This document shows, in pieces, positions 59,033-63,276 of a stretch of 64,000 nt of DNA. This DNA is from Flavivirga eckloniae. Its GTDB lineage: Bacteria > Bacteroidota > Bacteroidia > Flavobacteriales > Flavobacteriaceae. The stretch is from positions 3,301,001-3,365,000 of the forward strand of contig NZ_CP025791.1 in the NCBI RefSeq assembly GCF_002886045.1. The letters run 5' to 3'. The position numbers were made by a program, and so were the translations under genes. Positions within the stretch are counted from its first letter, which is position 1, and each line of letters starts with the position of its first letter. The notes below the pieces were generated by a model that saw only the letters and a program-made list of their open reading frames with translations, did no database searches and was not told where the DNA came from.

Positions 59033-59448
59033 GATGAGATGAGGTTTTAAATTAATAAGACTAATGTACAAAAGATAATTGCAAATAAGGGCTTTTTCTC
59101 ACAAAAAAACTAGAGTTGTTCTATAATAAAGTCATAAGCATTGTCGGCGAAAAAGTTATAGACGGTAAAAAGAATAATAGAAAAAAAACAATCTATATAA
59201 ACCCTTATTTTCCATCCAAAAATCATGTGCTTTTAGAAAAATGCTATAAATCAAAAAAAGTAACTTAATAGTTGTTAGTTCGTCCCGATTTTTTACTTCT
59301 ATTTCCTCAAAATTCTTTAAATTCGCATCCTTATAAGAATGTATAGTAAATGAGCACGAAAACTTTGATATTTAGCTGATTACCAAGAGTAGAAGGTTTA
59401 AAAACAAAGTTTACATCTGTCCATTAAAAAACAAATAAAAAATTGCAG
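59033..59448. other. Intergenic and ileS leader region
   Basis: About 400 AT-rich bases without a credible gene. TAAATTCG at 59318-59325 differs by one base from the TAnnTTTG -7 consensus and could start an ileS transcript with a leader of roughly 115 nt. No T-box or riboswitch structure recognised. Confidence 0.4.
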
Positions 59449-62400
59449 ATGAAATTTCCTGAATATAAAGGACTTGACTTACCAAATGTAGCAAATGAGA
59501 TACTGCAATATTGGCAAGAAAATAACATCTTTGAAAAAAGTGTTACAACAAGAGAAGGTAACGAACCGTATGTGTTTTATGAAGGACCGCCATCGGCAAA
59601 TGGACTTCCGGGAGTACATCACGTTTTAGCACGTGCCATTAAAGATATTTTTCCTCGTTACAAAACCATGAAAGGCTACCAGGTAAAGCGTAAAGCTGGT
59701 TGGGATACGCATGGGTTGCCAATAGAGTTAGGTGTTGAAAAGGAATTAGGGATTACCAAAGAAGATATAGGTAAAACCATTTCAGTAGAAGATTATAATG
59801 CCGCATGTCGTAAAGCCGTTATGCGTTACACAGATGTCTGGAACGACCTAACCCAAAAAATGGGATATTGGGTCGATATGGACGATCCGTACATTACCTA
59901 CGATCCTAAATATATGGAAAGCGTTTGGTGGTTATTAAAGCAAATTTATAGCAAAGAATTACTGTACAAAGGGTATACCATACAACCTTATTCACCAAAA
60001 GCAGGAACAGGGCTAAGCTCGCACGAGTTAAATCAACCCGGAACATATCAAGATGTAACAGATACAACAGTTGTTGCTCAGTTTAAAGCTAATCAGGAAT
60101 CATTACCAGACTTTTTGCAAAACGAAGGAGATATTCACTTTTTGGCATGGACGACCACACCTTGGACCTTACCAAGTAATACAGCCTTAACCGTTGGTCC
60201 TAAAATTGATTATGTGTTAGTTGAAACGTATAATCAATATACATTCGAGCCAATAAAAGTAGTTTTAGCTAAGAAATTAGTTAGCTATCAGTTTTCTGGG
60301 AAGTTCAATCAAGTAGAAGACAAATCAGAGTTATTAAACTATAAATCTGGCGATAACCAGCCAACCGGCAAAGCAGGAAAAATTCCGTTTTATGTTGTTA
60401 AAGAATTTATAGGGAAAGATTTAGTAGGAATCACTTACGAGCAACTATTACCTTACGCATTACCAAACGATAATCCAGAAAATGCGTTTAGAATCATTTC
60501 CGGAGATTTCGTAACCACAGAAGACGGTACAGGGATTGTACATACGGCACCTACTTTTGGAGCAGACGATGCCTTGGTTGCTAAACAAGCCAAACCAGAA
60601 GTGCCTCCTATGTTGGTGAAAGATGAAAATGGAAATCTGGTACCTCTTGTAGATTTACAAGGACGTTTTAGATCAGAAATGGGAGAATATGCTGGGAAGT
60701 ATGTAAAAAACGAATATTATAACGAAGGAGAAGCGCCAGATCGTTCTGTAGATGTTGAGATTGCCATTAAATTAAAAGAAGAAAACAAAGCCTTTAAGGT
60801 TGAAAAATATAAACACAGTTACCCAAATTGTTGGAGAACCGATAAACCAATTCTTTACTACCCGTTAGACTCTTGGTTTATTAAAGTAACCGATGTTAAG
60901 GAAAGAATGCATGAGCTTAACAATTCCATTAACTGGAAACCAAAAAGCACTGGAGAAGGGCGTTTTGGTAATTGGTTGGCTAATGCAAACGATTGGAATT
61001 TATCACGTTCACGTTATTGGGGAATTCCTTTGCCAATTTGGAGAACCGAAGATGGAAAAGAAGAAATCTGTATAGGATCTGTTGAGGAATTGAAATCTGA
61101 GATGACTAAAGCAGTTTCAGCTGGCGTTTTAGAAAAGGACATTTTTGAAGGTTTTGAAGTAGGAAACAATTCCGAAGAAAATTATGCTAAGATAGATTTA
61201 CATAAAAACATTGTTGATGCTGTTGTGTTAGTATCACCATCAGGTCAAAAAATGTTCCGCGAAAGCGATTTAATAGATGTTTGGTTCGATTCAGGTTCTA
61301 TGCCATATGCGCAATGGCATTATCCGTTTGAATTGCCTCCTAAATCCTTCAAAGGAGCACTTTCAGCAACTCCTGGATATCAAACAGCAAGAAAATCTTC
61401 GTGCGCATTACTTAAAACATTAAAGGAAGAGAGAAGGAAAAACCCAACTCAAGCAGAAACGATACTTTGGGAATCTTTGAGAGGGAAAAAGCTTGATAAT
61501 TATAAGTTTAGGCGAGAGCATATTATAGATGAGTTTATCGTAGATTTCGTTTGTTTGTCACAACGATTGGTAATTGAAGTCGATGGAGGGTATCACAATA
61601 AGCCCGAAGTTGTTGAAGCTGATAAATTAAGAACACAGATTTTAGAAGATTTAGGCTATAACGTAATTCGCTTTACAAATGAAGAAGTAATAGGCGATAT
61701 TGATGGTACCTTAGAGAAAATAAGCAATAAATTAAAAGTCCTTCCCTTAGGGAAGGATTTAGGATGGGCTTTTCCAGCAGATTTTATTGCAGAAGGAGTT
61801 GATCAAACAAGAGGTTGGTTCTATACACTACATGCTATAGGAACAATGGTTTTCGATTCTGTAGCCTATAAAAATGTGGTATCTAATGGACTTGTTTTAG
61901 ATAAGAACGGACAGAAAATGTCGAAACGTTTAGGGAATGCTGTCGATCCGTTTGAAACTTTAGGGAATTACGGAGCCGATGCTACACGTTGGTATATGAT
62001 TAGCAATGCAAACCCTTGGGATAACTTGAAATTCGATTTAGATGGCGTAGAAGAAGTAAAGCGTAAGTTTTTTGGAACACTTTATAATACGTACTCGTTC
62101 TTCTCTTTATATACTAATTTAGATAAGTTTAATTATTCTGAGGCAGATATAGCGATAGAAGAACGACCAGAAATAGATCGTTGGATTATATCAGAACTGA
62201 ATACGCTAATCAAAAAAGTAGATACGTTTTATGCAGACTATGAGCCTACTAAAGCAGCGCGTGCTATTTCAGATTTTACACAAGATTACCTAAGTAACTG
62301 GTTTGTACGTTTAAGTAGAAGGCGTTTTTGGAAAGGAGATTACGAGCAAGATAAGATTTCGGCATACCAAACATTATATACGTGTATGTTGACGATTGCT

Positions 62401-63276
62401 AAGCTAGGTGCTCCAATTGCACCGTTCTTTATGGACAGATTGTATTTAGACTTAAATTCGGTTACCAAACAAGAATCATTTGAAAGTGTGCATCTAGCAA
62501 ACTTCCCTGTTTATAATGAGGCTTTTGTAGATAAAAGCTTAGAACGTAAAATGGAAAGTGCTCAAACAATATCGTCGTTGGTTTTATCGTTAAGAGCTAA
62601 AGAAAAAATAAAAGTACGTCAGCCGCTTCAAAAAATAATGATTCCGGTTGATAATGCACAGCAAAAGGAGGAAGTTTTAGCAGTTTCCGAATTAATAAAA
62701 CATGAAGTTAATGTTAAAGAAGTTGAGCTTTTAGAAGAAGCCTCAGATATATTAGTAAAACAAATAAAGCCCAATTTTAAAGCACTTGGACCTCGTTTTG
62801 GTAAAGAAATGAAGCAAATAGCCAATACGATCAAAACGTTAAATGCCGAGGATATTAAAAAAATTGAACAAAATGGTGTTTTAGATGTTGAAATTAATGG
62901 AAAAAATATTACTTTAGAGCTTGAAGATGTAGAGATTACATCTCAGGACATAGAAGGTTGGTTGGTTGCAAACGAAGGATCGTTAACAGTTGCTCTTGAT
63001 GTTACAATATCTGATGATTTACGAAGAGAAGGTATTGCAAGAGAACTTATAAATCGTATACAGAATTTGCGTAAGGATTCAGGCTTTGAAGTAACAGATA
63101 GAATTGATGTCATGCTTCAAAAAGATGATAATGTTATAAATGCTGTTAATGCAAATATGACTTATATTAAAACAGAAACCTTAACCAATGAACTTGAAAT
63201 TATTGATAAATTAGACAATGGTATTGAGATTGCCTTTGATGATGTGAATACCAAATTGTTTATACAAAAACATTAG
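59449..63276 (+). CDS. ileS: Isoleucyl-tRNA synthetase with in-frame DUF559 nuclease-domain insert
   Basis: 1275-residue class I synthetase (start ATG at 59449; a TTG lies 6 bp earlier). It has the HIGH-type region NGLPGVHHVLARAIKD, a CP1 editing domain (WTTTPWTLPSNTA), KMSKRLGNAVDP and a normal C-terminal tRNA-binding part. Between DVWFDSGSMPYAQWHYPFE and FPADFIAEGVDQTRGW, residues about 629-773 are foreign: a DUF559/Vsr-like domain with AETILWESLRGKKL, FRREHIIDEFIVDF and LVIEVDGGYHNK. Without the insert the length is about 1130, normal for Bacteroidota. No stop or frameshift interrupts it, so the essential enzyme is presumably made as a fusion. Intein splice motifs are absent. Confidence 0.95.
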   Translation: MKFPEYKGLDLPNVANEILQYWQENNIFEKSVTTREGNEPYVFYEGPPSANGLPGVHHVLARAIKDIFPRYKTMKGYQVKRKAGWDTHGLPIELGVEKELGITKEDIGKTISVEDYNAACRKAVMRYTDVWNDLTQKMGYWVDMDDPYITYDPKYMESVWWLLKQIYSKELLYKGYTIQPYSPKAGTGLSSHELNQPGTYQDVTDTTVVAQFKANQESLPDFLQNEGDIHFLAWTTTPWTLPSNTALTVGPKIDYVLVETYNQYTFEPIKVVLAKKLVSYQFSGKFNQVEDKSELLNYKSGDNQPTGKAGKIPFYVVKEFIGKDLVGITYEQLLPYALPNDNPENAFRIISGDFVTTEDGTGIVHTAPTFGADDALVAKQAKPEVPPMLVKDENGNLVPLVDLQGRFRSEMGEYAGKYVKNEYYNEGEAPDRSVDVEIAIKLKEENKAFKVEKYKHSYPNCWRTDKPILYYPLDSWFIKVTDVKERMHELNNSINWKPKSTGEGRFGNWLANANDWNLSRSRYWGIPLPIWRTEDGKEEICIGSVEELKSEMTKAVSAGVLEKDIFEGFEVGNNSEENYAKIDLHKNIVDAVVLVSPSGQKMFRESDLIDVWFDSGSMPYAQWHYPFELPPKSFKGALSATPGYQTARKSSCALLKTLKEERRKNPTQAETILWESLRGKKLDNYKFRREHIIDEFIVDFVCLSQRLVIEVDGGYHNKPEVVEADKLRTQILEDLGYNVIRFTNEEVIGDIDGTLEKISNKLKVLPLGKDLGWAFPADFIAEGVDQTRGWFYTLHAIGTMVFDSVAYKNVVSNGLVLDKNGQKMSKRLGNAVDPFETLGNYGADATRWYMISNANPWDNLKFDLDGVEEVKRKFFGTLYNTYSFFSLYTNLDKFNYSEADIAIEERPEIDRWIISELNTLIKKVDTFYADYEPTKAARAISDFTQDYLSNWFVRLSRRRFWKGDYEQDKISAYQTLYTCMLTIAKLGAPIAPFFMDRLYLDLNSVTKQESFESVHLANFPVYNEAFVDKSLERKMESAQTISSLVLSLRAKEKIKVRQPLQKIMIPVDNAQQKEEVLAVSELIKHEVNVKEVELLEEASDILVKQIKPNFKALGPRFGKEMKQIANTIKTLNAEDIKKIEQNGVLDVEINGKNITLELEDVEITSQDIEGWLVANEGSLTVALDVTISDDLRREGIARELINRIQNLRKDSGFEVTDRIDVMLQKDDNVINAVNANMTYIKTETLTNELEIIDKLDNGIEIAFDDVNTKLFIQKH
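61338..61764 (+). mobile_element. Small DUF559 nuclease element with hairpin inverted termini inside ileS
   Basis: The insert is bounded by perfect 13-bp inverted repeats, TCCTAAATCCTTC (61338-61350) and GAAGGATTTAGGA (61752-61764). Each terminus is a CCTAAA tag followed inward by a hairpin: TCCTTCAAAGGA (61345-61356) on the left, and an 8-bp stem TCCTTCCC/GGGAAGGA with loop TTA (61739-61757) on the right. Between them the ileS frame encodes a complete DUF559 domain with PD-(D/E)xK-type acids (VDF then IEVDG, residues about 700-720). There is no in-frame ATG for independent translation. Confidence 0.8.

Follow-up and report, generated by a model that had tools for sequence, protein, structure and literature searches.

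A DUF559 Nuclease Between Tagged Hairpins Inside the Isoleucyl-tRNA Synthetase Gene of Flavivirga eckloniae: Probable Copy of a Small REP-like Mobile Element

The ileS Gene and Its In-Frame Insert

The window analyzed here is a 64,000-nt stretch of Flavivirga eckloniae DNA (contig NZ_CP025791.1, positions 3,301,001 to 3,365,000 of the forward strand), and its ileS gene encodes isoleucyl-tRNA synthetase (IleRS) as one uninterrupted frame of 1277 amino acids (aa) that contains a nuclease domain of the DUF559 family (Table 1). A sequence-only reading had proposed an in-frame DUF559 block with hairpin ends in a loop of this gene at 61338-61764; comparison with relatives that lack the block bears this out and defines a slightly larger insert of 438 nt, bounded by the residues HYPFE and FPADF. 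This insert is probably a copy of a small mobile element resembling repetitive extragenic palindromic (REP) sequences, in which a DUF559 nuclease of the Vsr/EDxHD-type PD-(D/E)xK group lies between inverted tagged hairpins and stays on in the host enzyme as a permanent domain.

Table 1. Features of the ileS locus, in positions of the window.
Feature	Position	Strand	Basis or remark
ileS isoleucyl-tRNA synthetase frame	59443..63276	+	start TTG at 59443, ATG at 59449; Pfam PF00133, PF08264 and PF19302 around the insert
In-frame insert, 146 codons, residues 631-776	61333..61770	+	borders from comparison with empty relatives
Left outer tag CCTCCT	61336..61341	+	sequence; tag outward in internal copies
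Left arm, 13-nt terminal inverted repeat	61338..61350	+	repeat search
Left hairpin, partly decayed here	61345..61357	+	intact in the G003 and G008 ileS copies
GYQTA motif ahead of the nuclease domain	61375..61389	+	kin motifs in internal copies
DUF559 (PF04480) nuclease domain	61426..61734	+	E 2.4e-32; 12 invariant columns; AlphaFold2; Foldseek
Right hairpin CCTTCCC-TTA-GGGAAGG, perfect	61740..61756	+	model R1 match at G000:C1:3362735-3362771
Right arm, 13-nt terminal inverted repeat	61752..61764	+	repeat search
Right outer tag GGATGGG, near-copy of hairpin arm	61762..61768	+	sequence; orientation rule tested

A Pfam scan of the whole frame places IleRS domains on both sides of DUF559, which matches at IleRS residues 662-764 with 111.5 bits against a curated cut-off of 20.6; the domain is complete, as had been supposed. 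The six Pfam hits belong to synthetase, DUF5915, DUF559 and MTES_1575 families only and include no intein family, in agreement with the earlier reading, and no group I or group II intron RNA was matched in Rfam at E <= 1 within 60800-62300. The insert stands where empty alleles have a loop of 10 residues, which reads NADLIDKGTT or nearly so in most empty alleles of the same genus. A short GYxTA-like stretch before the nuclease domain is common to the copies found inside genes, with GYMTG, KYMTA and HWKTA as further forms.

Twelve positions of the nuclease (T30, E33, W37, D62, F63, E73, G76, H79, D88, R91, R104 and N107) are invariant in 49 of 49 aligned rows, and the conserved acidic and histidine columns among them presumably have catalytic roles. 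The AlphaFold2 model of the domain reaches a mean predicted local distance difference test score (pLDDT) of 86.3. Its top Foldseek match is NGO0050 (3hrl; E 9e-8), followed by the homing endonuclease I-Bth0305I (3r3p; E 5.7e-5 and 9.6e-5, TM 0.75-0.79 of the target), with Escherichia coli Vsr weaker (E 0.024). A model of IleRS with the insert in place proved unusable (pLDDT 45.4, predicted TM score 0.34) and was set aside. Median ratios of non-synonymous to synonymous divergence (dN/dS) in the inserts are 0.10 for ileS (3 pairs), 0.12 for recG (45), 0.14 for leuS (15) and 0.13 for metH (15), compared with 0.03-0.10 in the host genes. Judged from these substitution patterns, the nuclease is under purifying selection and is maintained as a working protein, beyond the mere maintenance of an open frame.

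Presence and Absence of the Insert in Relatives

Among 60 genomes, one of them that of F. eckloniae (G000), an IleRS match spanning the insert was obtained from G000, G003 and G008 alone. Thirty loci were compared, of which 26 could be read by their motifs: three carry the insert and lack the 10-residue loop, and 23 are without the insert. Alignment with relatives, which had been set as the test of the sequence-only reading, thus shows that not all of them carry the insert. Within the genus it is absent from 9 of 12 genomes (G000 to G011). In a host tree built from the host DNA of ileS, recG and leuS (the 12 genus genomes plus two), grouping of the three carriers as a clade is rejected (p-AU 2e-52), and their sisters G010, G009 and G001 are all empty. 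Since each carrier has an empty sister, at least three changes are required on the tree. The ileS frame is open in all three carriers, and the ileS, recG and leuS frames are open in all 12 genus genomes. The ileS of G006 (L016) holds a different insert of 21 residues with a palindromic look (GTCAACCTGAACTTG... GTTCGGAACGAC) in the same IleRS loop.

These data also bear on an alternative, namely that the insert entered once in the ancestor of the genus, is now immobile, and disappeared on several occasions when empty alleles recombined into the site. In its favor, the nuclease tree unites the three inserts (100/98), their divergence is similar to that of parts of the host gene, and the ileS flanks follow the species tree. 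Co-conversion of these flanks was not found: three sites are shared by the carriers only, against 42 at which each carrier follows its sister, and large co-converted tracts are excluded because the flanks track the species tree nearly to the junction. On our reading of the host tree, however, a single entry would call for some five to seven independent replacements of the allele, each with a very short tract, and simple excision cannot produce the empty alleles, since these keep a loop that the carriers lack. Synonymous divergence (dS) of the insert is moreover below that of the whole host gene in all three ileS pairs (median 0.46 vs 0.85), although not clearly below that of the C-terminal half. 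On balance, we regard an old and now immobile insertion as unlikely.

DUF559 Copies in Other Genes

The genome of F. eckloniae contains four PF04480 matches: the one in ileS, a second in frame in recG, a free copy, and a weak match in a 171-aa gene that reads as Vsr-like. The recG copy (L003, G000:C1:5583018-5586320) lies in frame between the helicase domains of an 848-aa RecG, whose identity Pfam confirms. This site is found in graded states across the genus. It is full in G000, G004, G005 and G009 (4 of 12); in G003 both hairpins are present and the nuclease is absent; G001, G006, G008 and, in more decayed form, G010 retain a left-end remnant; and G002, G007 and G011 are empty. The recG frame is open in 12 of 12 genomes whatever the state, so the two-hairpin and one-hairpin derivatives are in frame as well. 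A full copy is also carried by leuS in 6 of 12 genus genomes. Extra variable stretches, absent in other species, occur between the SAFVY-like and GRDVEKMSK motifs in LeuRS of G008, G002 and G003 (L123, L128, L129).

In the family as a whole, 143 of 299 genomes have a PF04480 match, and the nuclease occurs in frame in LeuRS, RecG and MetH and as N-terminal fusions to HemD. From 145 domain hits, 120 of them unique, four open reading frames below 110 aa were omitted and 116 copies were classified by motifs. They comprise 46 internal rows (LeuRS, RecG, MetH or IleRS, including one LeuRS row, L136, that is a cut piece of another), nine HemD fusions, one copy at a HisD end and 60 free copies, proportions that do not amount to a rate because the set was picked by score and by interest in copies within genes. 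The view that DUF559 proteins are normally free-standing thus needs correction, as 46 of these rows are internal and 10 copies are fused to HemD or HisD. Pfam confirms LeuRS, RecG, MetH, HisD and six of the nine HemD fusions (as HEM4). The HemD fusions are L042, L053, L055, L061, L145, L146, L148, L152 and L161, and the frame preceding that of L042 reads as HemC. In G004 (L069), two free DUF559 genes stand in tandem with similar flanks, possibly a recent duplication of a whole free element.

Beyond these hosts, Pfam identifies DUF559 in the wider set together with HsdR (three scanned), HsdM, HsdS, a type ISP enzyme, DNA methylases, GlnD (near its start), a GATase_5 protein and HisD (both at their ends). 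Of these hosts only the HisD copy was placed in the DUF559 tree, and openness of the frame is no evidence in the wider set, as its copies were picked via their open frame. The nuclease is thus found in frame in unrelated conserved genes. Relatives turn up seldom in phages (2 of 50,697 records) or plasmids (38 of 72,556), so the element is mainly chromosomal, as REPs are.

In the tree of 114 domains, the copies of LeuRS (23), RecG (11), MetH (8) and IleRS (3) and the HisD-linked copy make up the 46 rows on one side of a single branch (100/96), and this side contains no free copy. The IleRS group adjoins the RecG copies, and the HemD fusions form a separate group (100/98) that includes one free copy. 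One clade without free copies, together with the common GYxTA-like stretch, looks like a lineage passing from gene to gene and not like repeated capture of free genes. In G248, metH (L143 / L040) carries DUF559 twice, at different sites; these two copies share 81.2% of their DNA sequence and pair as sisters (100/91); the second site has no such insert in L144, L150 and L054, and L151 shows another, unrelated-looking stretch of about 35-45 residues there. For LeuRS, the host grouping of G167/G259 with G001/G006/G008 is rejected for the insert (p-AU 0.016, the group having been picked after the tree was seen), so that a conflict between insert and host trees is suggestive only. The G004-G007 pair of LeuRS inserts has 94.7% DNA identity vs 86.7 and 83.1% in the 150-codon flanks, and most of the 45 pairs have no such gap.

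Hairpins and Tags at the Ends

The sequence-only reading had described perfect 13-bp inverted repeats at the borders of the insert, and these are present as TCCTAAATCCTTC / GAAGGATTTAGGA with a spacing of 401 nt; by an arithmetic estimate, about 0.006 such 13-nt pairs are expected by chance in the 901 nt searched. Each end is a tag plus a hairpin, as it had further proposed; the right hairpin is perfect, and the left one is partly decayed in this copy, the G003 and G008 copies having kept it intact.

Such ends recur at other DUF559 loci, contrary to the second outcome that would have refuted the sequence-only reading. Of 45 internal copies, 30 are flanked on either side by a G+C-rich perfect hairpin no more than 150 nt away, compared with 1 of 45 after shuffling (45 of the 46 rows were used, one flank being cut off). 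Hairpins number 0.91 and 0.78 per 100 nt beside the domain and thin out to 0.02-0.11 at 300-700 nt. Hairpins on both sides also occur around 22 of 60 free copies of the family (shuffled, 0) and around 56 of 75 cross-phylum domains (shuffled, 4 of 75). The cross-phylum set consists of 80 loci, the best 80 of at least 456 relatives of a typed query, with 81 domains, 75 of which entered the both-sides count.

The tag nearly repeats one arm of a hairpin, and a rule for its orientation, not sought beforehand, emerged. In internal copies, it points outward in 50 of the 51 ends that could be scored (92 in total). Free copies have it inward, in 64 of 81 scored ends (144 in total) of the cross-phylum set and in 20 of 28 (120 in total) of the family. 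Shuffled sequence yields at most four scorable ends per set, and none for the internal set. Small sets are mixed: other copies within open reading frames give 9 outward and 2 inward in the phylum set and 3 outward and 9 inward in the cross-phylum set, and HemD fusions give 3 outward and 2 inward. The cross-phylum genes (L230-L309) lie between hairpins of the CCCCTCTCCCC-AA-CCCCTCTCCC-GCAA-GGGAGAGGGG kind, mostly with the tag inward, opposite to the copies within genes.

A score for long plain inverted repeats between the two flanks was tried and rejected. It exceeded 99% of the null in 3 of 23 LeuRS, 2 of 11 RecG, 3 of 8 HemD, 4 of 8 MetH, 2 of 3 IleRS and 32 of 60 free copies, and direct repeats, the intended control, passed in 43 of 60 free copies. 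Because the two ends are of the same hairpin kind and differ in sequence, this score was replaced by the tests of hairpin position and tag orientation.

Solo Hairpins and Y1 Transposases

Tagged hairpins also occur alone. A covariance model (R1), built from the ends of internal copies, many of them from genomes of the same genus, finds 32 places in the F. eckloniae genome at E <= 1, both ends of the ileS and recG copies included. Thirty of the 32 were examined: one lies in frame in LeuRS, one in a 735-aa frame, and most of the others outside long frames. In leuS, a solo hairpin occupies one site in G001, G006, G008 and G009, and a second site in 9 of the 11 genomes shown (not in G010 and G011), where one or two are decayed. 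The F. eckloniae genome also holds about a dozen near-identical GAGTGAGATTCCTCCCTCGAGGGAGGATTAAGGAGGGTGTTTTT copies outside long frames (L318, L320-L324, L328, L330-L332, L334, L335), perhaps a recently amplified family of solo tagged hairpins.

The hairpins are commoner in genomes with internal copies. Across 37 genomes, in counts that include element ends (with no more than two to three internal copies per genus genome), R1 matches at E <= 0.1 number 7-33 in the nine genus genomes with internal copies vs 5, 0 and 1 in the three that have none (exact p 0.0045). In genomes from outside the genus, those with internal copies give 4, 4, 9 and 0 matches, and none of the 21 lacking them exceeds 1. 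For these counts, DUF559 hits that were weak or unlisted (G012, G013, G014, the second match of G022, G024 and G029) were taken as no internal copy.

These solo hairpins invite another explanation, according to which they are moved by a different enzyme, such as a REP-associated tyrosine transposase (RAYT) or another HUH transposase, or arise by replication slippage, and the DUF559 frame merely rides between two of them. Y1_Tnp matches are indeed present in 12 of 12 genus genomes, at 63 places, and a Y1_Tnp frame has R1 hairpins at a distance of about 1.5 kb in G000, G004 and G009. In G000, the genome in which gene order was followed, two other genes stand between the Y1 frame and those hairpins, which lie where a hemE-like gene ends and do not enclose the frame. 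No R1 hairpin at E <= 0.05 was found within about 1.5 kb of any of the 30 Y1_Tnp places examined among the 63 (95.7 kb), whereas internal DUF559 loci have them, partly by construction of the model. G002 and G010 possess Y1_Tnp yet have 5 and 0 hairpins, respectively, and the cross-phylum DUF559 domains sit between hairpins far beyond the shuffled level. A passenger role for the nuclease is accordingly judged improbable.

Two further observations concern the Y1 genes. A RAYT-like Y1_Tnp domain is joined in frame to an apparent coproporphyrinogen oxidase HemF (L370:2803-4290; G000:C1:2809802-2811289), a parallel, with another nuclease, to the DUF559-HemD fusions. Y1_Tnp frames of 495-535 aa occur also in G004, G005, G006, G009 and G011.

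Mode of Movement and Persistence

The mode of movement may be homing, hairpin transposition or both. Occurrence at the same sites in many species would fit homing, with which it is consistent without being proof, and two sites in one metH would fit hairpin transposition. In the mechanism that we envisage, the nuclease would be produced together with the host enzyme, as a lasting part of it, and would nick or cut tagged hairpins or the empty allele, after which host repair would copy the unit. In essential genes, insertions and losses would survive only if they keep the frame and fall in tolerant loops. As only in-frame losses would be viable, the host gene would guard the element against deletion much as it guards an intein, with no splicing involved; the series of recG states suggests such protection by an essential gene.

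Several points weigh against a mobile element. Movement itself was not observed. The ileS flanks agree with the species tree up to a point very near the junction, and the C-terminal half of the host gene has an identity at four-fold degenerate sites similar to that of the insert, so that spread after speciation is not proved. A single clade of the genus LeuRS inserts is not rejected (p-AU 0.08). Fifteen of the 45 internal copies have a perfect stem on one side at most, 41 of 92 internal-copy ends could not be scored for tag orientation, and no clear target-site duplication could be defined by eye at ileS or recG, the host loop being replaced at ileS. As for the hairpin counts, the building of R1 from such ends accounts in itself for a share of the matches in every genome, and members of a single genus are not independent samples. 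An in-frame copy without any R1 match occurs in G021, and G002 shows 5 matches and no DUF559. The model, finally, marks the internal kind only, matching 1 of 13 free-copy loci of the genus.

It might also be supposed that the nuclease is a domesticated domain, useful to IleRS, LeuRS, RecG or MetH and kept for the benefit of the host. The low dN/dS and the invariant active site would suit such a role. However, the domain is patchy among sister species (ileS 3/12, recG 4/12, leuS 6/12), lies in frame in unrelated proteins too, and has been reduced to bare hairpins in the recG of G003, which makes domestication very unlikely. Spliced elements typically sit in conserved genes, as this insert does, yet its removal before the mature enzyme acts, by an intein of a new kind, an intron or ribosome bypass, is hardly credible given the open frame at the site in all three carriers, a host loop that is replaced rather than merely interrupted, the lack of intein matches in Pfam and of Rfam matches at E <= 1, and strong selection on the amino acids. 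The earlier proposal of a permanent, unspliced domain is in turn supported by the open frames in 12 genus genomes, dN/dS of 0.10-0.14 and this same lack of an intein or intron signal.

A copy of a REP-like mobile element thus remains our preferred account of the ileS insert. A wider generalization is possible and is put forward tentatively: DUF559 nucleases may be the dedicated mobilizing enzymes of a second, non-GTAG class of REP-like tagged hairpins spread over many bacterial phyla, and one clade of these nucleases would have become an in-frame "domain transposon" that moves among the conserved genes of Bacteroidota-type bacteria and invades them anew without splicing.

Relation to Known Systems

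Short palindromic elements in frame in conserved protein genes are described in Rickettsia (PMC10969869; PMC3733652). These Rickettsia palindromic elements are about 150 bp long (PMC10969869), and repeats of R. conorii carry a CGTC tag (PMC3733652). Like other intragenic REPs, they share with the ileS unit a palindromic nature and an in-frame position within genes. They differ from it in that the ileS unit has 438 bp with a full nuclease domain between two tagged hairpins, for which about 150 bp would be too short, and in that internal copies lack CGTC.

A CGTC-REP identity (CGTC tag, stem-loop and CCA tail) was tested with two 260-nt windows per copy and one per far control. The signature appeared in 1 of 24 LeuRS, 0 of 11 RecG, 1 of 8 MetH and 0 of 3 IleRS copies, and in 2 of 81 cross-phylum copies vs 14 of 283 far windows. 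Only free copies of the family show it (25 of 60 vs 5 of 118 far windows). As it fails for internal and cross-phylum copies, this identity is not claimed for ileS.

In the REPtron, the RAYT (TnpA-REP) is an HUH/tyrosine enzyme associated with GTAG-tagged repeats (PMC3733652). In both, a gene of nuclease type is framed by tagged hairpins in inverted orientation, and further hairpins occur alone in the genome. The ileS element departs from the REPtron in its Vsr-like DUF559, its C/G-rich tags that copy a hairpin arm, and the lack of an HUH/Y1 gene in the insert. By fold, the EDxHD enzyme I-Bth0305I is the closest characterized enzyme, and homing enzymes invade conserved sites. It is treated among group I intron homing enzymes (PMC3943268); at ileS, no intron or intein was found, and the frame remains in the gene. 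Among DUF559/Vsr-like proteins, Caulobacter VsrA belongs to the same Pfam family and is presented as a relative of Vsr that may act in repair (PMC12907096), and NGO0050 is the top match by fold; no mobile in-frame form is described in the papers examined. A search of the open-access literature found no description of DUF559 with hairpin ends or of in-frame copies. In-frame intragenic palindromes and the pairing of REP with RAYT are known, and we regard the ileS insert as a variant of the REP-like elements that uses a homing-type nuclease.

Conclusions

In an earlier account, it is splicing by introns or inteins that allows mobile nucleases to last in conserved genes (PMC3943268). The DUF559 lineage appears to persist in such genes without splicing, as a permanent domain. 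The enzyme acting on CGTC-REPs is left as an open question in an earlier study (PMC3733652), and DUF559 is a candidate enzyme for REP-like palindromes that lack a known transposase. A mobile element of this kind would also explain the occurrence of DUF559 within synthetases, RecG, MetH and restriction enzymes.

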